NCBI GenBank assembly: GCA_900319485.1
Contig: ONOQ01000009.1
Coordinates: 1 to 48,987, forward strand
Direction of reading: 5' to 3'
DNA: 48,987 bases
Origin: an uncultured Bacteroidales bacterium
GTDB taxonomy: Bacteria; Bacteroidota; Bacteroidia; Bacteroidales; UBA932
Part shown: positions 28,590 to 47,791 of the stretch, in pieces
Layout: every line of letters starts with the position of its first letter
Numbering within the stretch: the first letter of the stretch is position 1
Notes under the pieces: generated by a model
Told to the model about the DNA's origin: nothing
The model's database searches: none
What the model saw: only the letters and a program-made list of their open reading frames with translations
Translations under genes and position numbers: made by a program

Positions 28590-29450
28590 TTAAACTGATA
28601 AATCTAATGGCAGATCTGATATGTCTTTGAGGCGCTTCCCTTCAACAAGAATATTAAGCATTTCTTTTGCGTCTTCCTCCTGTTCAAAGGAATTGACAGC
28701 ATTGATAAGTTCCGGCAATGCAAAATGATAAACGCAATCTATGTCGCCGGTTCCTAGCGCCAGAGAAGCAAGTCTGGACGGAAGCGGTTCTCCTGTAACA
28801 ACAACAATGTGAGGAAGATGCCCTTTCCTGTTTCTTATAAGCCCCAACGCTTCCGTACGGCTATTCTGAGCACGGTCACTCCTTATGGTCCATTTGGCAG
28901 ACACCGACGCGTGAAGAATAGGAAGTCCGGTAAATGACTTTCTTAAGTCCGAATGAGTAGAAACATTACTTCCCACTATCTCACAAGGGCTGTTGATAAA
29001 CTCATCTGTCTCCGGTTCACGATAGATTACAACATCCGGAGCGACCATATAGTCATTTCCTAAACTTGCGGCCAGTTTCGGGTCCTCCAGAGTCAAAGTT
29101 GCAAGATAATCGAGATGTTCATATTGAGCAAAACTGCTTGTCTTTATGCTGTTTCGATTCCCGAGTTTTGCCACTTTCCACTGTCCGGGCCTCAGATGCT
29201 GCAAGTTTGGAAAGGTCTCTTCAAGAAAGAGCATATTGATACTCTCAAATCGGGCGCCAGATGTCTGCCCAAGAGCTTTTGTTTGAACGTGGGCTTCCAG
29301 TTGCGATGCCACTTCTCTGGCAATTGCAACAGAAAGACGGCTGGACTTATCTGCGTTGCTGGGGATACCATCTTTATCGACAGATAGAATGCCTTCGTCA
29401 AGCAAACGCTTGTGATATCTGTTTCTTGCTTGTAATATCAGCGATTCCAT
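28590..29450 (-). CDS. Type II restriction endonuclease, NgoMIV family (predicted GCCGGC)
   Basis: A 286-aa enzyme closely resembling NgoMIV, which cuts GCCGGC as a tetramer. As far as I recall the NgoMIV numbering, its catalytic residues Glu70, Asp140, Lys187 and Glu201 correspond here to Glu69 (GARFESI), Asp139 (VAPDVVIYR), Lys186 and Glu200 ([11 protein letters not shown] then SRTE). The base-reading Arg191, Asp193 and Arg194 correspond to Arg190, Asp192 and Arg193. C-terminal VYHFALPEL and [16 protein letters not shown] also match. It is intact and probably active. It overlaps the methyltransferase gene by 53 nt in another frame. Base composition looks lower in G+C than the neighbours, suggesting acquisition by transfer. 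Confidence 0.93.
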
Positions 29451-30387
29451 TATCTAGGGCTTTTATGATTTCTATTCCTACTGCTTCTGCCACTGGTGGA
29501 GGAAAAGCATTTCCTATCATCCTGCAAGCACTTGTTTTCCTGACGCCAAAATACCACCCATCCGGAAAACCTTGTATCCTTGCCATCATCGCTGGAGACA
29601 ATTTGGGCATTCCCTGGAATGAGGCATCCGGAGAATCATCGGCAACTCCTCTGCCATCAACCCCCAATTCCGCCCAGGCTTGCCTTGCCCTTGTAGGGCC
29701 AAGGTCCGGACCTCCGTGTTTTTTACTTCCTCCAACAAGTGTTGGGGCAATTTTATCGGCCCGTCTTGCCCAGGCAGCCGAATGCGGCCACCCATTCTTA
29801 CTCATCAAGTCAAGAAGTGCCTCCCCAACAGTTACCGGAGGATTATCAAGTGGCTTTGGAAAATCAAAGTAATCCGGGATATCTCTTCTTATGGCAACAA
29901 TTACAGCACGAGGACGAAGTTGAGGGACACCGTAATCGGAGGCATTTAGAAGTTTGATATGCGGCCGATAGCCGGAGCGCATAAGAGCGTAGATTATGGA
30001 TGTGCGGTAACTGTCAAATTTAGGCTCCATAAAGCCTTTTACATTCTCTATAAGGACAGCACGAGGATTTATTTCGTTGACAAGGCGAAGCATTTCAGGG
30101 AACAGATCCCTTTCGTCATCTTGTCCCAGTTGTTTTCCAGCCACACTGAATGGCGGGCACGGAACGCCTCCAGCAAGCAAATCTATTTTCCCCCTGTATG
30201 GAATTCCGGAAAAATCACGCACGTCCTTGCAGATTACATTCCAGTCGGGTTTATTTACCTTCAAGCATTCGCAGTATTGCTCTTCAAACTCTACAAGGGC
30301 CATATGCCTGAAACCGGCAAGTTCAAGCCCCAGGGCCTGTCCTCCGGCTCCGGTACATATCTCTAGCGATGTGTAGCCCTTCTTCAT
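29398..30387 (-). CDS. DNA (cytosine-5)-methyltransferase of the NgoMIV-like system
   Basis: A 329-aa C5 methyltransferase. Motif I is SLEICTGAGGQALGLELAGF (7-26), motif IV GGVPCPPFSVAGKQ with catalytic Cys77, motif VI ENVKGF (114-119), motif VIII QLRPRAVIVAIRRD, and motifs IX-X RMIGNAFPPPVAEAVG near 293-308. It probably protects host GCCGGC sites from the endonuclease encoded behind it; many such sites occur in the window (for example near 3160, 3954, 7153, 8515 and 9131). The promoter -7 element is 4 nt from the ATG, so the methylase would be made first from a leaderless mRNA. Confidence 0.93.
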   Translation of the reverse strand: MKKGYTSLEICTGAGGQALGLELAGFRHMALVEFEEQYCECLKVNKPDWNVICKDVRDFSGIPYRGKIDLLAGGVPCPPFSVAGKQLGQDDERDLFPEMLRLVNEINPRAVLIENVKGFMEPKFDSYRTSIIYALMRSGYRPHIKLLNASDYGVPQLRPRAVIVAIRRDIPDYFDFPKPLDNPPVTVGEALLDLMSKNGWPHSAAWARRADKIAPTLVGGSKKHGGPDLGPTRARQAWAELGVDGRGVADDSPDASFQGMPKLSPAMMARIQGFPDGWYFGVRKTSACRMIGNAFPPPVAEAVGIEIIKALDNGIADITSKKQISQAFA

Positions 30388-31734: not shown

Positions 31735-32664
31735 TTATTCTATTGAGTTCATATCTATCAGGTTGTTCAGGAGGGCATACACCGTAAGGCCGGCAACGGT
31801 TTTGATGCCGGTTTTTCGGGTGATGTTCTTGCGGTGGGAAATGACGGTGTAGATAGAGATGTTGTAAAGATCGGCAATCTCCTTGTTGAGCATTCCCTTG
31901 GCAACGGCCACAAGTATTTCCTTTTCGCGGGCGCTCAGTTCCCCGCCTTCGCCGCGCGGAGCCTCCGATTCATCCTCCATCCGGCTCACTACGGGCACCA
32001 GGATGCCGTCCTCAATGAAGGTGTGGCGCTCAAGGTCGCTCTCCAGGCTATAGAGGTAGAAAAGCACCCTGAAGCAGTCCTGGGAACTGCTCTGGGAAGG
32101 CTGATACATTGTGACCAGTTTTTTAAGGTCATCCAGTTTCTCCTCCACGTTAGAGTGGTTCTTCTCATATTCACCGATGGTGTAGGGTTCCCTCTCACGG
32201 CTGTCAATCATAGCCTCCACATACGGGAAAACCGTCTTTTCCTCATAGTCAAAGTGACGCTCCAGTTCTTCCTTGTAATCCCCGAAGAACTTACGGATCA
32301 CCTTCTTGTGCATATCGTCACAGGGGCCGATCATATCCTCGATGGCGGCTGCAAGGGCCGGCACCATAGTTTCCAGATAATAGGTGTGGGAAAGACGGAG
32401 ATAACGGACAATATCCTCAAGGCAGGCTCCTTCCATCTGCTCCCTGGAAGGCCGATAACCGTCAAAAGCGTAAACCTTGCAGATGATGAGGAAGGTTTCA
32501 GGGTCTATGCCCATGCCGTCACAGACCTCCTTTACCGTGGCCTCACCAAAGCCGTAACTCATCCCAAAGCGGGAAAATACCCCAAGAATAGAAAAATTGA
32601 CGTCCAGCAGGTCTGCCATCTTCATGGCCGGACTGATGGACGTTATGGACACCTGAGGTTTCAT
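31735..32664 (-). CDS. Hemerythrin-domain regulator with C-terminal LuxR DNA-binding domain
   Basis: A 309-aa fusion. Residues about 10-75 resemble the ScdA/RIC N-terminal domain (DUF542: MKMADLLDVNFSILGVFSRFG), residues about 80-225 a hemerythrin-like four-helix bundle with iron-ligand-type residues (LSHTYYLE, ERHFDYEEKTVFPYVE, EKNHSN, ERHTFIED), and residues about 240-305 a LuxR-type helix-turn-helix (LSAREKEILVAVAKGMLNKEIA, YTVISHRKNITRKTGI). RIC proteins repair iron centres after nitric oxide or oxygen damage; fused to DNA-binding it looks like a di-iron sensor controlling transcription (inference). It is leaderless-type, and repeat array 1 starts 52 nt upstream of its ATG. Confidence 0.88.
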   Translation of the reverse strand: MKPQVSITSISPAMKMADLLDVNFSILGVFSRFGMSYGFGEATVKEVCDGMGIDPETFLIICKVYAFDGYRPSREQMEGACLEDIVRYLRLSHTYYLETMVPALAAAIEDMIGPCDDMHKKVIRKFFGDYKEELERHFDYEEKTVFPYVEAMIDSREREPYTIGEYEKNHSNVEEKLDDLKKLVTMYQPSQSSSQDCFRVLFYLYSLESDLERHTFIEDGILVPVVSRMEDESEAPRGEGGELSAREKEILVAVAKGMLNKEIADLYNISIYTVISHRKNITRKTGIKTVAGLTVYALLNNLIDMNSIE

Positions 32665-32668
32665 CTTA

Positions 32669-32676
32669 CAAAATTA
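32669..32676 (-). promoter_or_regulatory. -7 element of the hemerythrin-LuxR gene, leaderless arrangement
   Basis: TAATTTTG on the minus strand lies 4 nt before the ATG at 32664 and 39 nt from the nearest motif of repeat array 1. Confidence 0.55.
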
Positions 32677-32715
32677 GAAAAAATTTGGATAGTCTGTGCC
32701 GATTTTTCGGGAAAT

Positions 32716-33030
32716 GTCGCAGGTGGTAGGGCAAAGTGTCGCAGGTGGTAGGGCAAAGTGTCGCAGGTGGTAGGGCAAAGTGTCGCAGGTCAAGCAGTGA
32801 TTCGTCGCAGGTGGCGGGGCAAAGTGTCGCAGGTCTGCGTTTTTGGCGTCACCTGCGACGCAAATCGGCCACAGGAGCAAAAAAACGTCGCAGGTCCGGC
32901 GTTTTTTGCAGACCTGCGACGGAATGAGTCAGAACTTGCGACGGTGTAAACTTTGACCTGCGACGGTACGGGCCAGAACTCGCGGCGGAGCAGATGGCCA
33001 CCTGCGACATATCGGCCAAGCACCTGCAAC
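32716..33030. repeat. Phased repeat array 1: 22-bp GTCGCAGGT lattice with a 95-bp double-hairpin core
   Basis: GTCGCAGGT starts at 32716, 32738, 32760, 32782, 32804 and 32826, exactly every 22 bp, most followed by the 13-nt linker GGTAGGGCAAAGT or a variant. The core (32826-32920) contains hairpin 1 (32826-32859) and hairpin 2 (32887-32920), each GTCGCAGGT-N16-ACCTGCGAC, separated by 27 nt. The reversed motif ACCTGCGAC or a variant then follows at 32912, 32934, 32956, 32978, 33000 and 33022, again every 22 bp. The array fills the 389-bp gap between the RAYT gene and the hemerythrin-LuxR gene. It is not coding: the period is not a multiple of three. Confidence 0.95.
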
Positions 33031-33053
33031 ACCAGGTGCTCCCGGCTGCGGCG

Positions 33054-34013
33054 CTAAACCATCGGCACCATCTTTCCCGCCGATGTTTTTGCGCCCATCG
33101 AAGACAGCAATCCGGCCACTACATCGCGGGGCATTCCCAGACATCTTGAGAGCTGCGGTACCGTGGTCCTGTACGACCTGTACAAATATGGCAGGAGTCT
33201 AGCCTTTACTTCCGGGGTCATTTCGGGGATGGTTTTATGGTACCATTTATCGGCCAGTTGCTTTATCACGGCCAACATCTCGGTGTCTGTCCGGGAGTGG
33301 CGTCCGCTGCTGACCAGCATCTGCTGCATTTCCGGGACATTGACTGAGCCGATCGTTTTGAGAAAGAACGCCTGGTCGTTGGAAAAAGCGCTCTCAAGAT
33401 AAGCATAGTCGCAGGCGCTCGCGGGCTCCACACCGCCATCGGCATTTACGAGCCATGGCACTCCGGACAAATCTTCGTGGGTATGGAAGACCGCTTCCCG
33501 TTCCCTCCGGCTCATATCGGCAACCCGGCGCACGGCTTCGGGACACCTGCCATCAGCAAACATTCCCCGGTATCCGGACCAGCGATAGTCCTCCACGCGC
33601 GAGCCGGCATCTATTGCGTTGCGGGGAATATACGCCAGCGCATTACGGACGTACCAGTCAGAATCCAGATACTTTACACTTATATCAGAGCGTGCCAGGA
33701 CAGCCTTCTCCTTATATTTCCAACTCAAGTATTGGGAATGGCGCTTTGTTATCAGGGAAGCCGTATTGAAGGCCGATTCAATACTCTCTGCCAGCAAGGA
33801 GCAGTGCCCGTGATTAGACATTGCTATTGCAATTATTACAATGCAATTAGCCATATGGGCCGATACATAGAAGCACTTTTCAAGATGGTCATAGTCTTCA
33901 TCGTCCTTGCAGAGAAGAGCAGTCTCCATCCCCTCCAGACTTATATGGAAGGGAAACACCTTGCACACTTTACCGTCAGGCAAAGTGCGCGTTACGATTC
34001 GCTGGAATGCCAT
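33054..34013 (-). CDS. REP-associated tyrosine transposase (RAYT), IS200-like Y1 family
   Basis: A 319-aa protein. The HUH metal-binding motif is HGH at 68-70 (AIAMSNHGHCSLL); a probable nucleophile Tyr128 lies in NALAYIPRNAIDAG, matching the YIHRNPV-type segment of RAYTs, followed by YRWSGYRGMF. About 90 C-terminal residues (HSRTDTEMLAV onward, with TVPQLSRCLGMPRDVVAGLL) look like a helix-turn-helix DNA-binding part. RAYTs are single-copy domesticated relatives of IS200/IS605 transposases that handle REP hairpins. No terminal repeats typical of a mobile IS are seen; structured hairpin arrays stand on both sides. The gene is 2 nt after a small partner gene. Confidence 0.88.
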   Translation of the reverse strand: MAFQRIVTRTLPDGKVCKVFPFHISLEGMETALLCKDDEDYDHLEKCFYVSAHMANCIVIIAIAMSNHGHCSLLAESIESAFNTASLITKRHSQYLSWKYKEKAVLARSDISVKYLDSDWYVRNALAYIPRNAIDAGSRVEDYRWSGYRGMFADGRCPEAVRRVADMSRREREAVFHTHEDLSGVPWLVNADGGVEPASACDYAYLESAFSNDQAFFLKTIGSVNVPEMQQMLVSSGRHSRTDTEMLAVIKQLADKWYHKTIPEMTPEVKARLLPYLYRSYRTTVPQLSRCLGMPRDVVAGLLSSMGAKTSAGKMVPMV

Positions 34014-34015
34014 AG

Positions 34016-34441
34016 TCAGTTCACCGGCTTGCCGATATCCGAGAATGATAACCCCATAGGGAAGACCCCGCTGATCGGACGGATTATATTTGACGGGTCA
34101 AAACCATAAGGCTTTTTCAGCGAAGAGGAATACTTCTCATAGTGAGGTATAAAACTGAACATCATGGTACTCCAGAGCTGCTCGGCATTGTCATACGGCT
34201 CTGCACACGAAATAATCTCACCCATTGACAGGTAGCGGATAGCCTTGCTGACGTTCAGGTTGTGGTCACGCCATATTGCATTCACAAGCCCGCGCATCAC
34301 CTGCCTGTACCTCTGGTCTACGAGTTTTGCCACCTCATCTAAATCCATAGGAGGAGATTCCAGGGAATCGGAAAACTCAAAATCCGTACTGAACAGCATT
34401 TCGCCGTTGTCGTCCACCAATACTTCCAAAAACTTTTTCAT
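34016..34441 (-). CDS. Small protein of unknown function, operon partner of the RAYT
   Basis: A 141-aa acidic protein with no signal peptide or membrane segment and no domain I recognise. Visible features are MKKFLEVLVDDNGEMLFSTDFEF at the start, a helical middle (DEVAKLVDQRYRQVMRGLVNAIWRDHNLNVSKAIRYLSM) and a Pro/Gly-rich end. I chose the ATG at 34441: the mRNA start predicted from the promoter at 34538-34568 leaves a leader of about 90 nt. The stop is 2 nt before the RAYT ATG, which implies coupled translation. A role in RAYT function or its control is a guess from position. Confidence 0.7.
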   Translation of the reverse strand: MKKFLEVLVDDNGEMLFSTDFEFSDSLESPPMDLDEVAKLVDQRYRQVMRGLVNAIWRDHNLNVSKAIRYLSMGEIISCAEPYDNAEQLWSTMMFSFIPHYEKYSSSLKKPYGFDPSNIIRPISGVFPMGLSFSDIGKPVN

Positions 34442-34537
34442 AACGATAATTATTATATGGTTTATATGATTGTGCAAGGCCTGGCAGGATTGCCCAGAGG
34501 CACTTGGATTGAGAGATTTTGGGAAGTAGCCCGATTG

Positions 34538-34568
34538 CAAACATATGTTTTTTAATATCCTGCAGCAA
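34538..34568 (-). promoter_or_regulatory. Promoter of the small-protein/RAYT operon
   Basis: On the minus strand TTG (34568-34566) and TATGTTTG (34545-34538) are 20 nt apart. Unlike many units here, the leader is long, about 90 nt. Confidence 0.65.
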
Positions 34569-34607
34569 GACGTCTGTGCAGATTTTTACGTTTTTTGTGA
34601 ATTATGT

Positions 34608-34639
34608 GTTGTTTCACGGGGTTCTTCACCTGAAACAAC
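34608..34639. repeat. Hairpin between the RAYT operon and repeat array 2
   Basis: GTTGTTTCA (34608-34616) and TGAAACAAC (34631-34639) form a perfect 9-bp stem with a 14-nt loop. The surrounding 34569-34756 stretch has no gene that I can support; it is A/T-rich up to about 34690. Confidence 0.5.
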
Positions 34640-34756
34640 AAAAGAAATCTGTCCTGCCGCATATTTTTTTTGTGATGTTTTTGGCTATCCCGAGGCTTTT
34701 GGCTGATGGCCCTTGGAAAAAATGCCCCCTGTGGGAGGCAGATGACGGGGCAAAGT

Positions 34757-34917
34757 GTCGCAGGTGGCGGAGCAAAGTGTCGCAGGTCTGCAAAAAACGC
34801 CGGACCCGCGACGCTCTTTTGCTTCTAGGGCCGATTTGCGTCGCAGGTGGCACCAAAAACGCAGACCTGCGACGGTTTATCGAAGGACCTGCGACGTGGA
34901 GTGATGAGACCTGCGAC
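34757..34917. repeat. Phased repeat array 2: inverted copy of the 95-bp core with 22-bp lattice
   Basis: GTCGCAGGT starts at 34757 and 34779; the core is 34779-34873 with hairpins 34779-34812 and 34840-34873; reversed motifs follow at 34865, 34887 and 34909, every 22 bp. A degraded unit precedes 34757. The core is the reverse complement of those in arrays 1 and 3, with about 87 of 95 bases matching array 1 by hand alignment. The right end stops 8 nt before the -7 element of queH, so it covers that gene's -33 region. Confidence 0.95.
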
Positions 34918-34925
34918 GTTTTTAT

Positions 34926-34933
34926 TATCTTTG
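34926..34933 (+). promoter_or_regulatory. -7 element of queH, leaderless arrangement
   Basis: TATCTTTG lies 4 nt before the GTG start at 34938. Repeat array 2 ends at 34917, inside the -33 region. Confidence 0.65.
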
Positions 34934-34937
34934 TACC

Positions 34938-35543
34938 GTGAAACAGAAATACCAGATAGAAGTTCCGGGAGGCGGGGACAAGAAGATCCTTCTTCACGCG
35001 TGCTGTGCTCCGTGCTCGGGGGCCATTGTGGAATACCTGGTAAAGCACGGCGTGAGGCCCGTAATCTTCTTCTCAAACTCCAATATCACTCCCCTTGAGG
35101 AGTATAGCCATAGGTTAAACGAGTGCATCCGCTACGCCAGAGAGTTTGGCCTGGAGGTGGTTGAGGATAACTATGACCACGATTCCTGGCTTACCTGCGC
35201 CTCCGGTCTGGAGACAGAGCCGGAACGTGGCGCCCGCTGCCTGGAGTGTTTCAAGCACAGACTCCTAAGAGCCGCGCAGTATGCTGCGGCCAACGGTTTT
35301 GAGGTACTCACAACCACCCTGGCCAGTTCCCGCTGGAAGAGTCTGGAGCAGGTGAACGAAGCCGGCGCCTGGGCCTGCTCACAGGTCCAGGGAGTGACGT
35401 GGTGGGGCCAGAATTGGAGAAAAGGCGGTCTTCAGGACCGCCGTAATGAGATTATCAGGGAGCAGAACTTCTACAACCAGCTGTTCTGTGGCTGCGAGTT
35501 CTCTCAGAGAACAGGTTCTGCAGAACCGTCAGAGGCTTTATAG
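34938..35543 (+). CDS. queH: Epoxyqueuosine reductase QueH
   Basis: A 201-aa QueH (former DUF208), which reduces epoxyqueuosine to queuosine in tRNA and replaces the unrelated QueG. The metal-binding cysteines are visible: HACCAPCS (Cys22, Cys23, Cys26), GARCLECFKHRL near 95-106 and the late FCGCEF. LTTTLASSRWKSLEQVNEAG and WWGQNWRKGGLQDRRNEIIRE also match. It begins with GTG 5 nt after its -7 element, so leaderless translation is likely. Its last 40 nt overlap the convergent gene on the other strand, with a palindrome GGTTCTGCAGAACC (35514-35527) there. Confidence 0.93.
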   Translation: MKQKYQIEVPGGGDKKILLHACCAPCSGAIVEYLVKHGVRPVIFFSNSNITPLEEYSHRLNECIRYAREFGLEVVEDNYDHDSWLTCASGLETEPERGARCLECFKHRLLRAAQYAAANGFEVLTTTLASSRWKSLEQVNEAGAWACSQVQGVTWWGQNWRKGGLQDRRNEIIREQNFYNQLFCGCEFSQRTGSAEPSEAL

Positions 35544-36007
35544 TCAAACTTGGAGCCGTGCCAGGTCCAGGAGAGAAGGGCGCTGCCGCTTCGGATGGAA
35601 AGGACCTGACGGAATACGCGGATTTCCGTTGCTTCCGGAGAACCAACCTTGCCGGCAAGTTTCCAGTCACCACCTTCCAGAGTATACACATTGGCATAAA
35701 CTCCGCCATCTCTGCGCCTTGCAATCACAAGGTCCGGGGCTCGGTTTCCGGTGAAATCATGAATGCCGATAACTGTGTCTCCTTCCCCGGATTCCAGGTC
35801 TGTGCCATTGATAGAAACGGCCCCAGAGGCCAGTGAGGCCTTGAAACTGGCCTTGTCAATTGAGAAGTCAAGCGTTCCGCTTTCACCAAAGAAATAACTC
35901 TCAAGGCCCACGATAAAGGTCTTGGACTCATTGTCTGAATAAGTACGCATTTGGGCATAGGCCGTAAGCCCGGCCAGAAGGCATATTATGGTTAGTAGTC
36001 TTTTCAT
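35504..36007 (-). CDS. Secreted protein of unknown function
   Basis: A 167-aa protein with signal peptide MKRLLTIICLLAGLTAYAQ. The mature part has an FG-GAP/VCBS-like stretch (VIGIHDFTGNRAPDLVIARRRDGG) but only one copy, then YANVYTLEGGDWKLAGKVGSPEATEIRVF. The start at 36007 is chosen because another ATG at 36016 lies inside the -7 element. It converges with queH and overlaps its end by 40 nt; both stop codons are clear. Function unknown. Confidence 0.75.
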   Translation of the reverse strand: MKRLLTIICLLAGLTAYAQMRTYSDNESKTFIVGLESYFFGESGTLDFSIDKASFKASLASGAVSINGTDLESGEGDTVIGIHDFTGNRAPDLVIARRRDGGVYANVYTLEGGDWKLAGKVGSPEATEIRVFRQVLSIRSGSALLSWTWHGSKFDYKASDGSAEPVL

Positions 36008-36013
36008 TATGTG

Positions 36014-36021
36014 CAAATATA
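36014..36021 (-). promoter_or_regulatory. -7 element of the secreted-protein gene, leaderless arrangement
   Basis: TATATTTG on the minus strand, 6 nt before the ATG at 36007. Repeat array 3 begins 61 nt further upstream. Confidence 0.6.
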
Positions 36022-36082
36022 CACATTTTTCACAATATGCATACCCATCGGCCCTTTCTACGTGGCATATCGGCCACGGAGC

Positions 36083-36265
36083 GTCGCAGGTGGCGAGGCA
36101 AAGCGTCGCAGGTCTGCGTTTTTGGCGTCACCTGCGACGCGAATCTGCCACAGGAGAAAAAAAGTGTCGCAGGTCCGGCAAATTTTGCAGACCTGCGACG
36201 AAAACGCTTGGGACCCGCGACGCCAAAGGGCTGGACCCGCGACGCCAAAGGGCAGAACCCGCGCC
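36083..36265. repeat. Phased repeat array 3: 95-bp double-hairpin core with 22-bp lattice
   Basis: GTCGCAGGT starts at 36083 and 36105; the core is 36105-36199 with hairpins 36105-36138 and 36166-36199; reversed motifs ACCTGCGAC, ACCCGCGAC or ACCCGCGCC follow at 36191, 36213, 36235 and 36257. All intervals (22, 25, 36, 25, 22) equal those of array 1. About 87 of 95 core bases match array 1. The left end faces the promoter at 36014-36021, the right end lies 9 nt from the stop codon of the barrel gene at 36275. Confidence 0.95.
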
Positions 36266-36274
36266 ACTAAAGGC

Positions 36275-36976
36275 TTAGAAGGAGAATCCTATACCAACCT
36301 TAATCTGGGAACGGGATGTGTAAGAGTCTTTGATCTTGGAGAAGTTCAGCATGCTGTGATCATAGCCGATGATAACCTGGATGTCACCAGCCTGGAGACC
36401 CACGCCGCCACCGAGGTAGATGTTGAAGGGATTGGAGATACCGCCCTCGTTCAGGGTGGCAACTTCCTTGTTATCCGGGCCGTACAATTTTCCATTGAAG
36501 TAATTCAACGTGTATTTTCCGGTAGATTGCACAAATGTGCCGATTCCGGCAGAAGCCTCAGAGGTTCCTTTACTGCTGAAGGCCATTTGGAAAACAGGGC
36601 CGGCATAAACGAAGAGATTGAAATCCCGGCCGAACTCGAAAGTATAATTCAGGTTGATGGGGACATTGATTGCAAATTCCCTGTAGGTCTCTCTTTCGCT
36701 CTTAAAAGTACCATAAATGGCCTCACTGTTGTTCCTTCTGTCAAAAAGGGTGCTGAAGTACACTCCGGGAGCCACACCAAAGCCTTCAACCACATTGAGG
36801 TTGTACTGGCCTCCAAGGTAAAGGCCATTGAGGTTGGTCTTGTCCGGATCTCCGCTTGTATACTTTGTTATTTCCGTTGAATTCAGCCAACCTGCACCAA
36901 ACGAGAGCTGGGCGTGGGCCTGGGTTCCAAGAAGCAGTGCCGCTGCGCTGAAAACAATAGCAACTATTTTCTTCAT
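36275..36976 (-). CDS. Outer-membrane beta-barrel protein, tandem paralogue 3
   Basis: A 233-aa porin-like protein with signal peptide (MKKIVAIVFSAAALLLGTQA, cut after HAQ). It is clearly related to the next gene upstream: both share LSFGAGWLNST or LSVGAGWLNST, a DPDKTNLNG or DPSKTNLNG segment, YVYAGPVFQ-type strands, NPFNIYLGGG and the end SRSQIKVGIGFSF. Eight-strand barrel size. The ligand is unknown. It is separated from paralogue 2 by a strong terminator, so it may be transcribed weakly by read-through or from an unseen promoter. Array 3 follows 9 nt after the stop. Confidence 0.85.
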   Translation of the reverse strand: MKKIVAIVFSAAALLLGTQAHAQLSFGAGWLNSTEITKYTSGDPDKTNLNGLYLGGQYNLNVVEGFGVAPGVYFSTLFDRRNNSEAIYGTFKSERETYREFAINVPINLNYTFEFGRDFNLFVYAGPVFQMAFSSKGTSEASAGIGTFVQSTGKYTLNYFNGKLYGPDNKEVATLNEGGISNPFNIYLGGGVGLQAGDIQVIIGYDHSMLNFSKIKDSYTSRSQIKVGIGFSF

Positions 36977-36992
36977 TATCTTACTGTTTTAC

Positions 36993-37025
36993 AGAAAAAG
37001 CCCTTTACGGGAAAGGGCTTTTTCT
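36993..37025 (-). terminator. Intrinsic terminator between barrel genes
   Basis: A 14-bp perfect stem (36993-37006 with 37012-37025), 5-nt loop, A-rich left arm and T-rich right arm, so it can work on either strand. It sits after the paralogue 2 gene. Confidence 0.8.
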
Positions 37026-37047
37026 AAGTGGTTTATCACCTAACAGA

Positions 37048-37746
37048 TTAGAAGGCGTAACCTACACCAAGTTTAATCTGGGAACGGGAAGCGGTTTCGT
37101 TGCTGTTCTTGGAGAAGTTAAGGAGGCTGTGATCATAACCGATGATAACCTGGAAAGCTCCGGCCTGGATACCAGCGCCGCCACCAAGATAGATGTTGAA
37201 GGGATTCTGATAGCCACCGTCGTGCTGACCAACTTCTTCATTCTTTGCGTTGTAAGTCTTTCCGCTGTAGTTGTCAGTGGTATACTTTCCGGTGGATACA
37301 CCAAGACCGCCTGCTGAGAGAGAGGCCTCATATGAAGCCTTGCTCACGATACCAAGCTGGAAAACAGGGCCTGCATAAACAAACACCTTGAAATCTCCAC
37401 CGATTTCAAATGCATAATTCACGTTTACAGGAACATTGAGATCAAACTCCCTGCTGGATGCATTTGTGCTACCAGAGACACCATAAGCAGAATCGCTGTT
37501 GTTCACTTTTGCGAAAATACCGGAGACATACAGTCCGGGGGCTACGCCAAGACCGGCAACAATGGGAAGGTTGTACTGACCACCTACGTAAAAACCGTTA
37601 AGGTTTGTCTTGGAGGGATCGTTATTTCCACTCTTTACAGTCTCTGTTGAATTGAGCCAACCTGCACCAACTGAAAGCTGTGCAAAGGCGTTTGTTCCGG
37701 ACAGCATAAGGGCTGCGCCAAGAACGATTGCAAAAATCTTTTTCAT
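37048..37746 (-). CDS. Outer-membrane beta-barrel protein, tandem paralogue 2
   Basis: A 232-aa porin-like protein (signal peptide MKKIFAIVLGAALMLSGTNA, cut after FAQ). Strands include LSVGAGWLNSTETV, FYVGGQYNLPIVAGLGVAPGLYVSG, FDLNVPVNVNYAFEIGGDFKVFVYAGPVFQLG, and the end IKLGVGYAF. It is closest to the 36275 gene and more distant from the 37764 gene, indicating two rounds of duplication. It starts 17 nt after paralogue 1 and is probably on its transcript. Confidence 0.85.
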   Translation of the reverse strand: MKKIFAIVLGAALMLSGTNAFAQLSVGAGWLNSTETVKSGNNDPSKTNLNGFYVGGQYNLPIVAGLGVAPGLYVSGIFAKVNNSDSAYGVSGSTNASSREFDLNVPVNVNYAFEIGGDFKVFVYAGPVFQLGIVSKASYEASLSAGGLGVSTGKYTTDNYSGKTYNAKNEEVGQHDGGYQNPFNIYLGGGAGIQAGAFQVIIGYDHSLLNFSKNSNETASRSQIKLGVGYAF

Positions 37747-37763
37747 TGTTAAACTATATTAGG

Positions 37764-38438
37764 TTAAAAATTATATCCAAGTCCTATCCTGAGGAGACCG
37801 CGGGTAACCTTTCCGTTGGGATCTGTGGTAAGGTTGAGAAGACCGAAGTCATAACCCGCATTCACGTGGATAAGTTCAGAAACCTCAACACCAAGGCCGA
37901 TTCCGAGATAAAGGTTGATGAGGTTACGGGCATCTATAGCCCTTGACTTGACCGTGCCGGGAATTGCCTTGTATTGGTTGTAGATCATTGTAGGGTTGTC
38001 GTCGGTGTCTATGACGCGGTCATAAAGTCCCAACTGGAAGGTGGGACCAGCCCAGGCCTCAAGCTTGAAATCGGGGGTGATCTCAAACAGATACTGGACG
38101 TGCAGCGGGACGTTCAGAGCTATCTGGTTCATGACGGCCCTGTTGTCAAGGGGATCGAAAACATCCATCTGCGCATGGCGGCCAAAGAGGAAAGAGACAT
38201 TTGCACCAGGTGCAAGGCTGAGACCTTCAGTGATGCTGTCAAGGCCGATACGATATTTTGCTCCGGCATAGAAACCGTCAAGCATGTCACTGCCGGAAAC
38301 CGTCACGTCACCACTTGCGAGTTTTTCCGTGAAGGTGCTGTTTTCTGTAGCGTGGAGGTATCCGCCATTAAAAATAAGCTGTGCATTTGCCTGCATTCCG
38401 ATGAGCAGGGCGGCTGCAATAACAAGTAGTTTTTTCAT
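37764..38438 (-). CDS. Outer-membrane beta-barrel protein, tandem paralogue 1
   Basis: A 224-aa porin-like protein (signal peptide MKKLLVIAAALLIGMQA, cut after NAQ). It shares the layout of the two following genes (GGYLHATENS, DGFYAGAKYRIG, IALNVPLHVQYLFEITPDFKLEAWAGPTFQLG, end LLRIGLGYNF). It is first of the three and has a clear TATCTTTG promoter 23 nt upstream, overlapping the end of the DUF4249 gene. Function unknown. Confidence 0.85.
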   Translation of the reverse strand: MKKLLVIAAALLIGMQANAQLIFNGGYLHATENSTFTEKLASGDVTVSGSDMLDGFYAGAKYRIGLDSITEGLSLAPGANVSFLFGRHAQMDVFDPLDNRAVMNQIALNVPLHVQYLFEITPDFKLEAWAGPTFQLGLYDRVIDTDDNPTMIYNQYKAIPGTVKSRAIDARNLINLYLGIGLGVEVSELIHVNAGYDFGLLNLTTDPNGKVTRGLLRIGLGYNF

Positions 38439-38461
38439 TTCAAACTATCAATTTAATCATA

Positions 38462-38469
38462 CAAAGATA
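38462..38469 (-). promoter_or_regulatory. -7 element of the tandem barrel genes
   Basis: TATCTTTG on the minus strand, 23 nt before the ATG at 38438 and 8 nt after the DUF4249 stop codon region. Confidence 0.6.
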
Positions 38470-38477
38470 GCAATTTT

Positions 38478-39302
38478 TTATTTAACCGTAACTTTTGCGT
38501 AAGTTACACCGTACCCGGCCCAGTACCCGTATGCTCCCTTCATGTTGCTTTTCGGATTGCTTGTGATAGGGAAAAAGCCCATTGTACTGATGGTTGAAAT
38601 GCCGTCAAAACCGTCCCAGAACTGCCATATATCCTCCTCAACCCGGCAGAACTTGATATTCACCGTTTCCCCAAGGATGTACAGCGGCCGCCAGCCCTTG
38701 CCCACCATAGTCCAGCCCCTCATCACGGTAACTGCGCCGGCCCTGTTGGTGGCAAGCTCACCGCTCAGCAAACATGGATGATACATTGTATCTTTTCCGT
38801 CTACCAGGGTGAAGAAGCGGTGATAATGGTCAGGGTCGTTGAAATAAGCGGTAACGACATACATAGTGTCGTACCGTTCCGATTTTGTGACCTCCACCCG
38901 GTCCAGGGGCGGAGGCTCAGGCACGCGTGACGTGGCTTTTGCCACGTGGTTGCCGTACATCACCTTCAGGGTATAGCTGTGCCCGGAAACGCCTGCCATC
39001 TCGTCAGTAGTGTAAACATACGGTGGCAGATACCGGGTGTCCTTGCGCCCAGTAAGACGCACCTCCGTTCCGGTATCCTCGTCTTTCACGGTTACATAGG
39101 CCTTGGTGTAAACGTTGCCGTCAAGGTCATCCACAGATTGCGTTACTTCCGTTGCCGCCACGGGGGATGTGACCATTACCACCGGGGCCGCTCCAGAGTC
39201 TATCCAGCCCTCCACGACCAGACGGTCAGGATCCCGCTGCAAAGGCTCCGTGGCGCAGGCTACGGCAAGAAACAGGAATATGGCTGGAATGGTCTTTTTC
39301 AT
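38478..39302 (-). CDS. DUF4249 family lipoprotein
   Basis: A 274-aa lipoprotein (MKKTIPAIFLFLAVACATEP, Cys16). The mature start DRLVVEGWIDSGAAPVVMVTSPV, then VTVKDEDTGTEVRL and the HSYTLKVMYGNHVAKATSRVPEPPPLDRV segment is typical of DUF4249, a Bacteroidota family with Ig-like beta domains found beside TonB receptors. It follows the receptor gene by 2 nt, so the two act together. Function unknown; a surface ligand-binding or receptor-lid role is inferred from the pairing. Confidence 0.85.
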   Translation of the reverse strand: MKKTIPAIFLFLAVACATEPLQRDPDRLVVEGWIDSGAAPVVMVTSPVAATEVTQSVDDLDGNVYTKAYVTVKDEDTGTEVRLTGRKDTRYLPPYVYTTDEMAGVSGHSYTLKVMYGNHVAKATSRVPEPPPLDRVEVTKSERYDTMYVVTAYFNDPDHYHRFFTLVDGKDTMYHPCLLSGELATNRAGAVTVMRGWTMVGKGWRPLYILGETVNIKFCRVEEDIWQFWDGFDGISTISTMGFFPITSNPKSNMKGAYGYWAGYGVTYAKVTVK

Positions 39303-39304
39303 TG

Positions 39305-41311
39305 TCAGAACTTGTAGAAATAGGAGATGGACGGCAGGAAACGCAGATACAGCGACATCGGCCTGTAGGCAAAAGTCTTTGCGTCGTCGCTGGGGTCAAG
39401 CATATAGAAGACGTCGTTCTTGTATCCGGCAACGTTATACACGGCCAGGGTAAGGCCGTGGCCGCGTCCGTCGGGAAGGCGGCGGAAATAATAGGAGGCC
39501 GATATGTCCAGCCTGAAATACGGCTTCATCCGGGCCGAGTTGCGTGGCGACATCTCCGCCACTATCATTCCTCCAGTCATAAGGAAAGAATCGGCCTTTG
39601 TGTATGGCAGACCGGAGGCCAGCACCATCACGCCGCCAAAATCCCATCGGCCCTTCGTATAATTGCCAACGGCATTCAGCTCGTGGATACGCTCGTGGTT
39701 GGACGGAATGGTTTCCCCGTCAAACGTGCGCAGGGAACGGGAAAGCGTGTAATTGATCCAGCCCGTGAAATCACCCGCCTGCTTGTGGAGGGTGAGGCAG
39801 AAACCGTAGTTCTGGCCATATCCCGTCCTGAGGTATTTTGGGGTACTGTAATCCGGGTCCAGGTAATCCATAAGGGTGCCCGTATAATCCAGCTGGTTTG
39901 TCAGATATCTGTAAAACAGGGATGCCGATATTGAGTAGCGGTCTCCCTTGTAGCTGCGGCCCCAGGAAAGGGACGCGTGACGGGAGCCCTGGGGCAAAAG
40001 GTCCTTGCCGGCAAGATACCAGAATTCAATGGGAAGGCCGATTGAAGAGACGCCCGTCTGGAACAGGTTCTGGCGGCTCAGGCCCGCCACAAGCTCAAAC
40101 TTGCCGGCCCAGTAAAGGTCCCAGGACAGCTTTAGCTCCGGAATTACTGCGGGGTAATTTGCGCCATCGGCCGAATGCCAGAAAATGCCCTTGAGAGACG
40201 CTGCAAGGCCGAAGTTTGAAGTTATGGGCCAGCTATACTGCACCCGGGCCGATGCCTCCACCGCCGCCTGGCTCTCGTCCGGGGCGGCCTGGGAGATATC
40301 CTTGTTACGCACCTGGGTCTGTTGAGGGTTGGAGTGGTGCCCCTCCACGCGCACCTCGCCAAGCCATTGGCCCGCATTGAGGGTGGACGAATAACCCAAG
40401 GTGCCGATGATGGAAGGCAGGTACATATCGTAAATGTCGTGCTCCAGGTCCACCGCCAGGTTAAGGCGGGTGTAATACAGTACCTGGTGCAGGTCTCCCC
40501 AGCTCCATTTATGCCGGTGATGCAGAGAGCCCTTTATGTTCATCCATTCAAGGCCGAAGCTGTATCCGCCGCGGGAGCTGCGGAACTTGATATCGTCGCC
40601 GCCCATCATAAAATCGGCCCAGACACGGTCGTTTTTGCCGGGCTCCCAGTACCAGGTGAGGTTCCCGTCCGTAAAACCGTATTTGAAACTGTACACGTCC
40701 ACCCTCAGGAAACTGCCGTAAAGAAGGTTGATATAGGAGCGCCGCAAAGACAGGAAAAGGGCGCTGTTGCGGCCAGTGGGAATATCCAGGGTGCCTTCCG
40801 CCTCAAAAAGGCTTGCGGAAATCTGGCCCCTTATGCGCCCCGGAATGCGGTCCGGGAGCTTCATGTCCACCGTGCCGCCAAGACGGTTGGCCCCTGAGTC
40901 GTAGGGGGCGAAACTCATTCCGCCGTAATGGCTTGGAATAAAGGTTGAAAACAGGCCCAGGACGTGTGTGGCGCCATAAATTGGCGCGCCGTCTACGGAA
41001 ACCAGCGAATGGGAATTCTCCGTTCCAAGGATATGGAGGCCGGCGTCAAACTCGGCGCCCGTCTGCACGCCGGGAAGGAGTTTCACTATACGGATAGGGT
41101 CAGGCGTGCCGGTGATGGAAGGGATACGCCTGAGCAGGTCTGTGTTTATGTAAATAGGCCTCGTCGGGGCGATTTCCAGAATGGAGGTGTGAGACTCTGA
41201 CGTAAACACCGTGCTGTCCAGACGCTCCTGGATGGCGGCGGAATCCGGTTCCTGGCCCCAAAGGACCGTGGCCCACAGCAACAGAAAGCCTATGGTCAGA
41301 ACACGCCTCAT
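39305..41311 (-). CDS. TonB-dependent receptor paired with DUF4249 lipoprotein
   Basis: A 668-aa outer-membrane receptor with signal peptide (MRRVLTIGFLLLWATVLWGQ), a plug (about 40-170: RRIPSITGTPDPIRIVKLLPGVQTG, HILGTENSHSLVSVDGAPIYG, NRLGGTVDMKLPD) and a barrel ending LYLRFLPSISYFYKF. It lacks the N-terminal carboxypeptidase-like domain that the receptor at 2648 has, and is shorter. Its ATG overlaps the stop of the preceding lipoprotein gene (ATGA), and the DUF4249 gene follows 2 nt after its end: a three-gene uptake module. Substrate unknown. Confidence 0.9.
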   Translation of the reverse strand: MRRVLTIGFLLLWATVLWGQEPDSAAIQERLDSTVFTSESHTSILEIAPTRPIYINTDLLRRIPSITGTPDPIRIVKLLPGVQTGAEFDAGLHILGTENSHSLVSVDGAPIYGATHVLGLFSTFIPSHYGGMSFAPYDSGANRLGGTVDMKLPDRIPGRIRGQISASLFEAEGTLDIPTGRNSALFLSLRRSYINLLYGSFLRVDVYSFKYGFTDGNLTWYWEPGKNDRVWADFMMGGDDIKFRSSRGGYSFGLEWMNIKGSLHHRHKWSWGDLHQVLYYTRLNLAVDLEHDIYDMYLPSIIGTLGYSSTLNAGQWLGEVRVEGHHSNPQQTQVRNKDISQAAPDESQAAVEASARVQYSWPITSNFGLAASLKGIFWHSADGANYPAVIPELKLSWDLYWAGKFELVAGLSRQNLFQTGVSSIGLPIEFWYLAGKDLLPQGSRHASLSWGRSYKGDRYSISASLFYRYLTNQLDYTGTLMDYLDPDYSTPKYLRTGYGQNYGFCLTLHKQAGDFTGWINYTLSRSLRTFDGETIPSNHERIHELNAVGNYTKGRWDFGGVMVLASGLPYTKADSFLMTGGMIVAEMSPRNSARMKPYFRLDISASYYFRRLPDGRGHGLTLAVYNVAGYKNDVFYMLDPSDDAKTFAYRPMSLYLRFLPSISYFYKF

Positions 41312-42222
41312 AGTACCACCGCTCTAAGGATATGAGGGAGGAGGTTGTTCCAGGCGTTGTAGAACGCTGATTTCTCGTCGTTGTCGCTGGCCATGAACTG
41401 GTCCACGAAAAAGGTATTGCGGTCTACTTTGGTGCCATCGGCGGCCATCAGAACCAGCTCCCAGGTCCAGTAATCGTCGTAACGGTTCTTATAGTGCAGG
41501 GGTACCACAGTAACGTAGCCTCGGGCTTCCGAGAGGTCACCTTCATAATAAACCTTTATATCTATGGCCGATGCGGCTTTCTCCACCAGGGGCACAGCAT
41601 CCTCCTCCGTCTCTGCGTCCGTGAGTTCGCGGAGCGTCTTCCAGAGGCCGTCGGCGTCAACGCAGCCACGGAAACTTATGCCGGTGATAATGTCCTGTGA
41701 CACCTCAACGTTCTCCATCGGCCCGTTTGCTTCAAAGGTGCCTAGCACCACGCCGTCAACCGCCAAAGTGATATTTGCCTCCACCCGGGTGCTGCTGTAA
41801 ACCAGCGGATTTGCATCCAGCCTTATCCCCGTCGATTCTCCCGAATAAACGTCTCCGTCTTTCCGGAATTGCCCCACCAGGGCCCCTTTCCTGAAGATGT
41901 CCAGGCTGGCCTTTTCACCGTCCTTTACGTATACGGCTTCACTGGGAACTCCGTCCGTTTCAAAACTGAGGGTTCGTGACTCTTCCCAGCCGCCATCGGC
42001 CCTGCTTATTGCCACGTAGGCCGCATCCAGGGTGCGCATTTCCTTTTCCCTGACTCCGGGATCAAGGTGCTTGTGAAATTCCCTTTCGCAGTTTTCCCAC
42101 TGGGCTCTTTGCCAGGAAGAACTCTCTTTGAGATTGACCGGCACGGCCTCCTGTTGAGCCTTGCCGCAGGAGAATAGCAGCGGCAAGGCGACAAGGATAA
42201 AGTATGCAAGGAGACGCCTCAT
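41308..42222 (-). CDS. DUF-type lipoprotein of a TonB receptor module
   Basis: A 304-aa lipoprotein (MRRLLAYFILVALPLLFSCGK, Cys19). The mature part is rich in beta-type sequence with VYVKDGEKASLDIFRKG and a closing WNNLLPHILRAVVL; I did not recognise a domain. The start at 42222 opens the signal peptide. It overlaps the receptor start by 4 nt (ATGA), so translation is coupled, and the product is probably a third component of the receptor system. Confidence 0.7.
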   Translation of the reverse strand: MRRLLAYFILVALPLLFSCGKAQQEAVPVNLKESSSWQRAQWENCEREFHKHLDPGVREKEMRTLDAAYVAISRADGGWEESRTLSFETDGVPSEAVYVKDGEKASLDIFRKGALVGQFRKDGDVYSGESTGIRLDANPLVYSSTRVEANITLAVDGVVLGTFEANGPMENVEVSQDIITGISFRGCVDADGLWKTLRELTDAETEEDAVPLVEKAASAIDIKVYYEGDLSEARGYVTVVPLHYKNRYDDYWTWELVLMAADGTKVDRNTFFVDQFMASDNDEKSAFYNAWNNLLPHILRAVVL

Positions 42223-42229
42223 CAATATG

Positions 42230-42237
42230 CGAAGATA
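42230..42237 (-). promoter_or_regulatory. -7-like element before the receptor module
   Basis: TATCTTCG (one base off the consensus) on the minus strand, 7 nt before the ATG at 42222, within the gap after the phospholipase-D-like gene. Confidence 0.45.
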
Positions 42238-42246
42238 CAAATAATA

Positions 42247-43425
42247 TTAGAAAACCTTGCCCAGCCCGCGGAAGAACCATTTGAAGTTCCTTTGCCAGGC
42301 CGGATAATCGGCTATCATCTCCGGGGTCACTTCATAACAGTTTTCCAGGTCGTCCACTATAAACTGCTTTACCTGGGCGGCAACGCCGCAGTCATAAAAA
42401 AACAGGTTGCTTTCATAGTTGGAAACCATTGAAAGGACATCGAGGTTTATGGATCCGACGGCCGAAAGATAATCGTCCACAACCATAAGCTTGGCGTGGT
42501 CAAACTGGTCCGTACGCATAAGGATATGCACCCCGGCCTTTACCATATCATCAAAGTACACCCTTTCGAACGGCACCACTACCGCTGCAGGAGAGTCCTT
42601 GTGCTCCGGAATAACGATTCTTACGTCCACGCCACGGAGGGCCGCATCCGCAAGTGCATCGGCAAACTCCTTGGGAGGCTTGAAATAAGGAGTCTTGGCA
42701 TAAAAATAGTGCCTGGCATGCTCCAGAGCCCATATATACGCCTTAAGGCTCAAGTGGTCATTCTCTTTTGGATCCTCATCTACTGACTGGACAATTACAC
42801 CCCCCTCGTATGGCTCCGCCACTTTTGTTTCATAGGCCGATGGCTTCCCGTGACGGCGCGCCCACATCTTGGCGAAGGCCTTCTCCATCTTCTCCACAAC
42901 AGGGCCACGGAGACGCACCACCATATCATCCCAGTCGCAGAAATAGTCTCTGGCCACGTTCATTCCTCCCGTATAGCCCACGGTGCCGTCCACAAGCACG
43001 TATTTCTGGTGGTTGCGGGGCCTCAGGGGCAGGAACGGATGATGTTTTACGGATACTCCGCTTTTCTTCATACGGTCTACGAAGTCCGCCCTGGTTGTGA
43101 AATCTTCGGCAATAAACTGCACCTCAACCCCGTCCAGGGCCTTCAGGCGCAAGGCGGTGCGTATGACGTTGCCGGCAAAATCGGCATCAAAGATAAAGAA
43201 CTCCATATGGATGCTTTTCTTTGCCGCCATAATGTCGTCCTGCAAAAGCAGGAACTGTTCCGGGCTGCTGGGGAGCAGTTCCACAAGATTTCCTTCCGTG
43301 GGTTCCCTTTCCGGAAGCGTGGACAGCATCTGCGTCAAAGGCAGGTATTCCTCCCGAATCTGCGCCTGCAGGGCAAGCGGAATCAGGAGGAATGCTGTAA
43401 CCGATATACAGAATGCCCGTTTCAA
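42247..43425 (-). CDS. Phospholipase D family protein, cardiolipin synthase-like
   Basis: A 392-aa protein with two HKD motifs: HQKYVLVDGTVGYTGGMN near 137-154 and HAKLMVVDDYLSAVGSINLD near 305-324, the full catalytic pair of the phospholipase-D superfamily. Between them are FIFDADFAGNVIRTAL and FPKGW-free linkers usual for bacterial cardiolipin synthases. An N-terminal hydrophobic stretch (residues 6-20, ISVTAFLLIPLALQA) looks like a signal peptide, so it may act in the periplasm. The start is a TTG directly after the stop codon of the peptidase gene (TAG-TTG), an uncommon start; no ATG gives a better N-terminus. Confidence 0.85.
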   Translation of the reverse strand: MKRAFCISVTAFLLIPLALQAQIREEYLPLTQMLSTLPEREPTEGNLVELLPSSPEQFLLLQDDIMAAKKSIHMEFFIFDADFAGNVIRTALRLKALDGVEVQFIAEDFTTRADFVDRMKKSGVSVKHHPFLPLRPRNHQKYVLVDGTVGYTGGMNVARDYFCDWDDMVVRLRGPVVEKMEKAFAKMWARRHGKPSAYETKVAEPYEGGVIVQSVDEDPKENDHLSLKAYIWALEHARHYFYAKTPYFKPPKEFADALADAALRGVDVRIVIPEHKDSPAAVVVPFERVYFDDMVKAGVHILMRTDQFDHAKLMVVDDYLSAVGSINLDVLSMVSNYESNLFFYDCGVAAQVKQFIVDDLENCYEVTPEMIADYPAWQRNFKWFFRGLGKVF

Positions 43426-45519: not shown

Positions 45520-45524
45520 ATTCC

Positions 45525-45532
45525 CAAAGATA
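45525..45532 (-). promoter_or_regulatory. -7 element of the prolyl oligopeptidase gene, leaderless arrangement
   Basis: TATCTTTG on the minus strand lies 5 nt before the ATG at 45519. Confidence 0.65.
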
Positions 45533-45623
45533 GTGAAATTGCGGTAATTAATGAAATTTCCGGTGGGATTCCCGGTAGGCGGTGGAGGTTAAGTTGCTGA
45601 TACGTAGCCATTTGCAGAGTTAG

Positions 45624-45662
45624 CACTACGGTACCTGTGCCCTTGTTAATGAGGTCGACGGC
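45624..45662 (-). pseudogene. Fragment related to the gene at 47309
   Basis: Directly after the hipT stop, the minus strand reads AVDLINKGTGTVV. The gene at 47309 has AIDLINKGTITIN, and 14 consecutive bases are the same. Only this short piece is recognisable; the rest of the 45533-45665 gap shows no other gene. It looks like the remains of a duplicated copy bracketing the hip operon. Confidence 0.4.
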
Positions 45663-45665
45663 TAC

Positions 45666-46917: not shown

Positions 46918-47120
46918 TTCACCTTCTTTTGAGGAACCAGTTCGTATCCGAACAAATCAAACACCTGGGCAACTTTATCCATACGGACAGTGGCCTTTCC
47001 CTGCTCCAACTCACGGACGAAGTTCAGGCCTACGCCGGACTTCATTGCAAGGTCAACCTGCGTCAGACCGTGCTCTTTCCGCAGTTGCTTTAATGTTGAA
47101 GATATGACGTTACTATTCAT
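46914..47120 (-). CDS. hipB: HipB-like XRE family repressor
   Basis: A 68-aa helix-turn-helix protein: STLKQLRKEHGLTQVDLAMKSGVGLNFVRELEQGKATVRMDKVAQVFDLFGYEL is a single XRE domain, as in HipB. The start at 47120 is preferred: an earlier in-frame ATG at 47162 would lie upstream of the expected transcription start (-7 at 47147-47140). It is probably the DNA-binding autorepressor of the operon; operator O1 lies 2 nt before its start codon. Confidence 0.9.
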   Translation of the reverse strand: MNSNVISSTLKQLRKEHGLTQVDLAMKSGVGLNFVRELEQGKATVRMDKVAQVFDLFGYELVPQKKVK

Positions 47121-47121
47121 G

Positions 47122-47224: not shown

Positions 47225-47234
47225 ACTCTATCTG

Positions 47235-47743: not shown

Positions 47744-47791
47744 CTATTCCTACCCCTTGGAAATCTTGAAGCAACATACAGCAAACTACCA

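Follow-up and report, generated by a model that had tools for sequence, protein, structure and literature searches.

Three intergenic arrays of a short repeated site, and a gene for a divergent REP (repetitive extragenic palindromic)-associated tyrosine transposase (RAYT) between arrays 1 and 2, are found in a 48,987-nucleotide stretch of DNA from an uncultured Bacteroidales bacterium (GenBank assembly GCA_900319485.1, contig ONOQ01000009.1, positions 1 to 48,987; here called the window). We consider it probable that the arrays are the cognate repeats of this RAYT and form a nonautonomous element of the REPIN type whose sites are read as double helix. Each array consists of a 95-bp double-hairpin core and of single outer sites that point at the core, and among related loci, letters 4 and 5 of the site were predicted in unseen cases from two residues of the neighboring RAYT.

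Architecture of the arrays

The window contains 22 exact GTCGCAGGT sites, versus a mean of 0.27 and a maximum of 4 in 100 shuffles. In all three arrays, these sites, with a step of 22 bp, surround the core; the intervals between sites inside the core are 25, 36, and 25 in every case, and the left outer units face right and the right ones face left, i.e., toward the core. Over 95 positions, cores 2 and 3 (core 2 as the reverse complement) are each 92% identical to core 1. A previous sequence-only reading, the interpretation of which is partly supported here, had described such a 22-bp lattice around a 95-bp core, with constant internal intervals, variable numbers of outer repeats, and about 87 of 95 matches between cores; the site counts, core coordinates, and computed identities bear this out, and orthologous arrays keep the core and differ in the number of outer units. 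The regularity that it described holds for the plan but not for every hairpin or slot. One core arm of array 2 is ACCCGCGAC, with one mismatch; a number of slots on the outer right of arrays 1 and 3 carry 1 to 2 mismatches, and one slot of array 1 is too diverged to score. Its proposals that the core be sought in related genomes and that the arrays might be linked with a RAYT were fruitful: the core is present in relatives, and cognate arrays lie beside their RAYT genes. An Rfam search of positions 32000 to 37000 gave no family match up to an E value of 1, and the anchored core detector (see below) found no core at window positions 1 to 32600 or 37001 to 48987.

Table 1. Positions of the arrays and associated genes within the window
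Feature	Position	Strand	Description
Array 1	32716..33030	+	5 outer units, core 32826-32920, 5 reversed outer slots (some degenerate)
Array 2	34757..34917	-	Core 34779-34873, reversed relative to core 1; outer units: 1 left, 2 right
Array 3	36083..36265	+	Core 36105-36199; 1 outer unit left, 3 slots right (degenerate)
Divergent RAYT-like Y1 HUH transposase gene	33054..34013	-	319 aa (amino acids); flanked by arrays 1 and 2
Codons of RAYT residues 168-178 (RREREAVFHTH)	33477..33509	-	Putative recognition segment; site letters correlate with residues 168, 172, and 178
orfA	34016..34441	-	141 aa, directly upstream of the RAYT gene; mostly helical predicted model

RAYT relatives were searched for in 199 family genomes (30 loci taken), and genome contigs were scanned as well (80 of 169 confirmed loci kept); the sequences are draft assemblies, mostly metagenome assembled. 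The nearest named relatives belong to uncultured Bacteroidales, mostly from the ruminant gut. A detector anchored on NNNNNAGGT shows arrays with this plan, made of other 9-mers of the form NNNNNAGGT, beside 83 of 98 closer RAYT loci; some of the 98 represent one place fetched twice (84 different among 88 rows), so that locus counts are slightly inflated, and since all rows are also related, the counts are not independent observations. The same detector found no core in 15 other loci (44,688 bases). Applied to 110 loci, 12 of them with distant RAYTs, a motif-free detector (w, w', w, w') located a core in 88, versus 0 of 110 block-shuffled copies (this shuffle permutes two-base blocks, and dinucleotides are not all strictly preserved). 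AGGT is the common part of the family sites, and the first five letters of NNNNNAGGT come in 32 kinds. Cores lie on both sides of the RAYT gene in 44 of 75 loci. When two cores of one locus were compared, 49 of 66 pairs had the same five variable letters, 15 differed by one, and 2 differed by three; in between-locus comparisons, the five letters were identical in 9.3%. Two further observations concern family loci. At one (L053), tandemly repeated 13-bp units (GCCTGACCG plus 4) come after the RAYT, at 1173 to 1400, and no core was detected there; three others (L108, L125, and L141) come from bins labeled Fibrobacter or Lachnospiraceae, all on contigs shorter than 4 kb.

Spacing is quantized. 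In the 134 cores that have an exact AGGT and no more than 4 mismatches, 263 of the 268 hairpin pitches are 25 or 26. The gap separating the hairpins, searched over 17 to 79, is 36 to 37 in 84 cores, 47 to 49 in 36, 58 to 60 in 12, and 20 and 68 in 1 each. Outer sites within 200 bp of 138 cores face inward in 313 cases and outward in 28. Steps between neighboring units, counted over a range of 12 to 34 in 171 nonredundant arrays (n = 306), are 22 in 267 cases, 21 in 24, and 31 to 34 in 10; the other 5 are 19, 20, or 23, and none falls at 24 to 30. Where neighboring spacers have diverged, the step is still exactly 22 in 89 of 103 cases, indicating that spacing is kept while spacer letters drift. 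The lattice steps are thus close to two or three helical turns, and the hairpin gaps, too, come in steps of roughly one turn. The helical period itself could not be pinned down: a circular statistic computed from the 9 distinct gap values had an R of 0.61 to 0.71 at every period tried between 10 and 12. At least 9 changes of gap class are required on the tree, some of them artifacts of noncognate cores (e.g., L120).

Folded in silico, the three window cores outperform 200 dinucleotide shuffles (z of -4.8 to -6.8). Each of them folds best into a single long nested hairpin, with the outer ends paired and the inner motifs paired, rather than into two side-by-side hairpins. All six cores tested beat their shuffles (z of -4.8 to -7.7), five preferring the nested hairpin and one (L138) the two hairpins. 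These two folds match the hairpin-or-clover alternative in the available description of REPINs (PMC3116915), and two inverted units forming a single-strand hairpin are what a REPIN possesses. The folds also bear on the main rival explanation, in which the RAYT reads single-stranded DNA alone, the outer motifs pair across the core into one long hairpin (stems of 9 bp, loops of 13 nt), and pairing is the sole reason for the equal spacing. The left and right units are indeed inverted and equally spaced, the cores fold far better than shuffles and mostly as a nested hairpin, and known RAYTs act on single-stranded REPs, according to the available part of PMC8266576. However, the numbers of units on the two sides are often unequal, and pairing alone demands neither steps near 2 and 3 helical turns that avoid 24 to 30 nor gaps near 36, 48, and 58. 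Unequal unit numbers together with quantized steps favor duplex recognition over single-strand stems, and we regard this explanation as unlikely.

RAYT residues and site letters

The window RAYT (numbered on a 318-aa piece without Met1) has SNHGH at residues 65 to 69 and a catalytic-type tyrosine, Tyr127, in YIPRNA. Its predicted fold is closest to that of the Escherichia coli RAYT; a PDB sequence search with it returned nothing convincing. Tyr127, Arg130, Asn131, and Ala132 are invariant in 18 of 18 RAYTs compared, and family members are about 304 to 319 aa long. The gene and its cognate repeats are adjacent, as in known systems with a Y1 HUH transposase.

We measured mutual information between residues and letters in a training set of 75 RAYT/array pairs (effective number, 55.5). 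Letter 4 follows residue 172 (z = 10.3), with G accompanying Glu in 42 of 42 cases and C accompanying Arg in 23 of 27. Letter 5 follows residue 178 (z = 8.2): C occurs with His or Arg (32/32), A with Gly or Ala (32/32), and T with Asn (5/5). Residue 168 is associated with letters 2 and 3 (z = 6.5 and 5.4, respectively). Residue 169 had a z of 10.5 for letter 1, but just 3 rows were non-G there. Residues 168, 169, 172, and 178 lie on or beside a predicted helix at 168 to 175 (mean predicted local distance difference test scores of 94 for residues 161 to 170 and 90 for residues 171 to 180).

The rule was frozen before the test, and further relatives were then fetched. Of the 66 loci offered, 3 had no ORF (open reading frame) hit, 26 had 90% or more identity to a training row or another test row, and 7 lacked a core with exact AGGT (L256, L292, L295, L300, L301, L312, and L315); dropping these left 30 unseen pairs at less than 90% identity to training. 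For these, the rule called letter 5 correctly in 28 cases (1 wrong, 1 no call), letter 4 in 26 (1 wrong, 3 no call), letter 3, with C or A allowed for Arg, in 24 (1 wrong, 5 no call), and letter 1 in 23 (0 wrong, 7 no call). A control on the same pairs used each protein column in turn as the predictor. Column 172 was best for letter 4 (28/30, versus 23 for the next column, 24 for the nearest training relative, and 6 for the majority letter), column 178 was best for letter 5 (28/30, versus 25 for the next column and 2 for the majority), and column 168 was best for letter 2 (24/30, versus 23 for the next column and 21 for both the nearest relative and the majority). Residue 169 gave no gain over the majority and was dropped as a predictor of letter 1. 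On a tree of 105 rows from which residues 160 to 184 were excluded, phylogenetically independent pairs never ran in the opposite direction in six tests.

In the major groove, reading the complementary strand, Glu prefers C, Arg and His prefer G, and Asn prefers A. The observed pairings fit these textbook preferences, which points to recognition of double helix, whether in duplex sites or in hairpin stems. That some of the site letters are largely predictable from a few residues suggests how the enzyme recognizes its own repeats. The same dependence bears on the idea that the arrays bind a host regulator or nucleoid protein and lie beside the RAYT by chance. Operator and iteron arrays do resemble the regular same-face spacing seen here, but the array motif changes with the neighboring RAYT, both across loci and within the source genome, and we therefore hold this idea to be very improbable.

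The source genome contains three RAYT matches, and the two others are 45% and 25% identical to the window protein. The first, a second family member (L223, G000:C46:107000-114000), has GGACCAGGT sites on both sides, and its motif forms three exact hairpins genome-wide. Distant relatives (about 25 to 30% identical) at L224 (G000:C57:24000-30500), L069, L070, and L073 lie near repeats of other sequence, with a period of 52 bp at L070, L073, and L224 and of 84 bp at L069; several distant relatives carry RNP instead of RNA. These distant RAYTs possibly represent a wider class of array-associated RAYTs.

Genomic copies, mechanism, and neighboring genes

In the source draft genome (G000; 2.5 Mb, 91 contigs), 10 core matches extend over 93 to 95 positions at 78 to 100% identity, 3 of them in the window; shorter matches also occur, and those below 60 bits were left out of this count. 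Three near relatives (L089 to L091; RAYTs 97 to 99% identical) have 16, 17, and 14 core matches at an E value of 1e-5 or better, some partial or counted on both strands. The copies are dispersed and intergenic, as REPINs are.

Four arrays present in a relative were compared across four genomes, and two of them (L175 and L178) showed insertion-like presence/absence polymorphism. At L175, the source genome (C75) reads through where G200 has ~174 bp directly after an ORF stop codon; in G199 the array is likewise absent, together with some further bases, and G201 is rearranged and was not scored. At L178, the source genome, G199, and G201 have 5 bp versus 284 bp in G200, so by parsimony this array would be a gain in G200. 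At L181 (site A), relatives differ and one has a collapsed-looking motif pair, and so neither insertion nor loss can be claimed. Where G199 has the array at site A (L214/L217), G200 and G201 have instead ~150 bp of unrelated sequence containing CGTCAACACGGC repeats, which may be a further small repeat element that uses this position. Beside the array at L191 (1642 to 2783 versus G000:C83), a gene of ~1.1 kb is inverted between close relatives.

Of 40 arrays examined, orthologues included, 38 were placed relative to genes, 2 lacking a core by a strict test. Nineteen lie between tandem ORFs, 10 between convergent ORFs, and 1 between divergent ORFs (uncertain, as an ORF spans it), with 8 unassigned; an ORF 3' end lies within 50 bp of 27 of the 38. 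Such positions would suit an RNA element or terminator that acts in mRNA 3' ends and was merely spread by the RAYT. Against this, the outer single motifs keep their letters and spacing, the motif follows RAYT residues, and the Rfam search described above was negative; we judge this explanation to be improbable.

Most likely, judging from the sequence comparisons, the RAYT recognizes 9-bp sites that are double helical and share one face of the DNA, and it acts on the core in the single-stranded state. As has been proposed for REPINs, the Y1 HUH enzyme would cut and mobilize the core, a pair of inverted double-foot hairpins, in single-stranded form; each 9-bp NNNNNAGGT site would also be read as duplex by a short RAYT helix (residues 168 to 178 in the window protein). 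Residue 172 would contact letter 4, residue 178 would contact letter 5, and residue 168 would probably read letter 2 and perhaps letter 3. With sites every two helical turns pointing at the core, bound RAYTs would align on one DNA face and load onto the core. A more specific proposal, which we offer tentatively as a possibility, is a near-modular residue-to-base code for duplex DNA (172 to 4, 178 to 5, and 168 to 2, perhaps 3) combined with a helically phased row of monomers on the inward lattice, with duplex loading preceding action on the hairpin core; the arrays could also serve as chromosome-wide anchoring sites of a domesticated RAYT.

Several points weigh against the reading of the arrays as REPIN-type repeats recognized in duplex form by their RAYT. 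The residue-letter correlation is statistical and the rows are related; independent pairs are few, one test giving a median p of 0.03 and the others 0.06 to 0.5. The rule missed letter 4 at L299, letter 5 at L289, and letter 3 at L257. The nearest training relative by itself is right for letter 5 in 26 of 30 cases; column 168 is marginal for letter 3 (22, versus 23 for the best column and 20 for the majority); letter 1 is uninformative (majority 28, column 169 only 26). Moreover, because hairpin stems are also double helical, the correlation alone does not separate duplex sites from single-stranded stems. The anchored core was not detected in 15 of the 98 loci, and Pfam and NCBIfam gave no convincing match for the window RAYT. 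Finally, two of the four polymorphic sites (L181 and L191) are not clean insertions, no target-site duplication was seen at L175 or L178, and no excised intermediate was seen.

Upstream of the RAYT gene, orfA is found in 54 of 88 RAYT loci and was not found in 34 (10 of the 98 loci, without a clean RAYT ORF, had been dropped from this set), and its product might contribute to the system. Pfam has no family for the window orfA, and a fold search gave 0 matches at an E value of 0.001 or better (best, 1.9). Among 38 orfA members searched against Pfam, one matches HRDC at 2.3e-18; we assigned it by eye to L052, where an orfA version (1034 to 1492; also in L097) has an apparent C-terminal HRDC domain. 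Elsewhere in the window, an ORF on the minus strand (28590 to 30387) resembles by eye a C5 cytosine methyltransferase, and a neighboring ORF may be its restriction enzyme. Three tandem minus-strand ORFs (36275 to 38438) appear by eye to encode related outer-membrane beta-barrel proteins, the first with a weak OMP_b-brl match.

Comparison with known systems

The way in which RAYTs select and disseminate REPs is still an open question, and in earlier work three enzyme/repeat pairs were tested (Corneloup et al. 2021, PMC8266576; this and the comparisons below concern the available portions of the cited papers). Here, 105 natural, related pairs (75 training, 30 unseen) show a readable residue-letter relation, with a rule that is predictive on unseen cases; this makes recognition directly testable in vitro and could provide a natural repertoire of HUH enzymes whose sites can be predicted. 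The helically spaced lattice is an addition to REP descriptions in those portions.

The claim of the sequence-only reading that no described element has this plan does not stand: the core shares the plan of the REPIN, i.e., two inverted REP units with a hairpin or clover fold beside a RAYT (Bertels and Rainey 2011, PMC3116915). Its related question of membership in a named REP or MITE (miniature inverted-repeat transposable element) family is answered in part, with no match in Rfam but with kinship to REPINs by plan. The REPIN/RAYT system, or REPtron (PMC3116915, PMC6006769), shares with the present one a dispersed extragenic element of two inverted palindromic units with a hairpin or clover fold, an adjacent Y1 HUH transposase with its own repeat family, and several RAYT/repeat pairs per genome. 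The present system differs in lacking the GT[AG]G tetranucleotide at the hairpin foot that marks canonical GTAG REPs (the window motif is GTCGCAGGT), in its 9-bp NNNNNAGGT site and inward 22-bp lattice of single sites, in a RAYT of ~304 to 319 aa with YxxRNA instead of Y---NP, and in the conserved upstream gene. The Y---NP motif defines TnpAY1 class 2 (Quentin et al. 2018, PMC6006769), which includes known RAYTs; the Y---Q motif of subclasses 1.1 and 1.2 of class 1 (IS200/IS605 type) is likewise absent from the window RAYT, and the source genome has no near-identical transposase gene copies of the IS200/IS605 kind.

Within class 2, subclass 2.6 (Bertels group 5), found in Bacteroidetes with atypical REP structures, shares with our system the Bacteroidota host, an NHuH-type motif, and noncanonical repeats flanking the gene; according to the published table, on which alone this comparison is based, its members have a median length of 179 aa and YIH[QN]NP, whereas those described here have ~310 aa and Y[IV]xRNA (PMC6006769). 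The double-foot REPs of subclass 2.4 also have a motif and its complement at both hairpin ends, but their foot is GT[AG]G/C[TC]AC and their description includes no lattice (PMC6006769). The BrickBuilt MITE of Porphyromonas gingivalis (PMC4596501), an intergenic Bacteroidales element of 23-nt repeats, invites the explanation that the arrays are a MITE or minisatellite of that type without a dedicated enzyme. BrickBuilt, however, consists of head-to-tail 23-mers without spacers, with a leader and tail and an unrelated consensus, and neither a double-hairpin core nor a RAYT is described for it; here, the units face inward, the spacers have diverged, and a RAYT is linked, which makes that explanation barely credible.

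No title among the listed matches of a literature search on REPIN, RAYT, REP, and BrickBuilt describes the array plan, and the available portions of PMC3116915, PMC6006769, PMC3733652, PMC8266576, and PMC4596501 contain no counterpart of the 9-bp NNNNNAGGT site, the helically spaced outer lattice, the upstream gene, or the residue-letter relation. By the features tested at the sequence level, this is by kind a RAYT/REPIN system that neither belongs to the canonical GTAG REPs nor carries the Y motifs published for class 1 or class 2, and it is best read as a new subtype of the RAYT/REPIN system.

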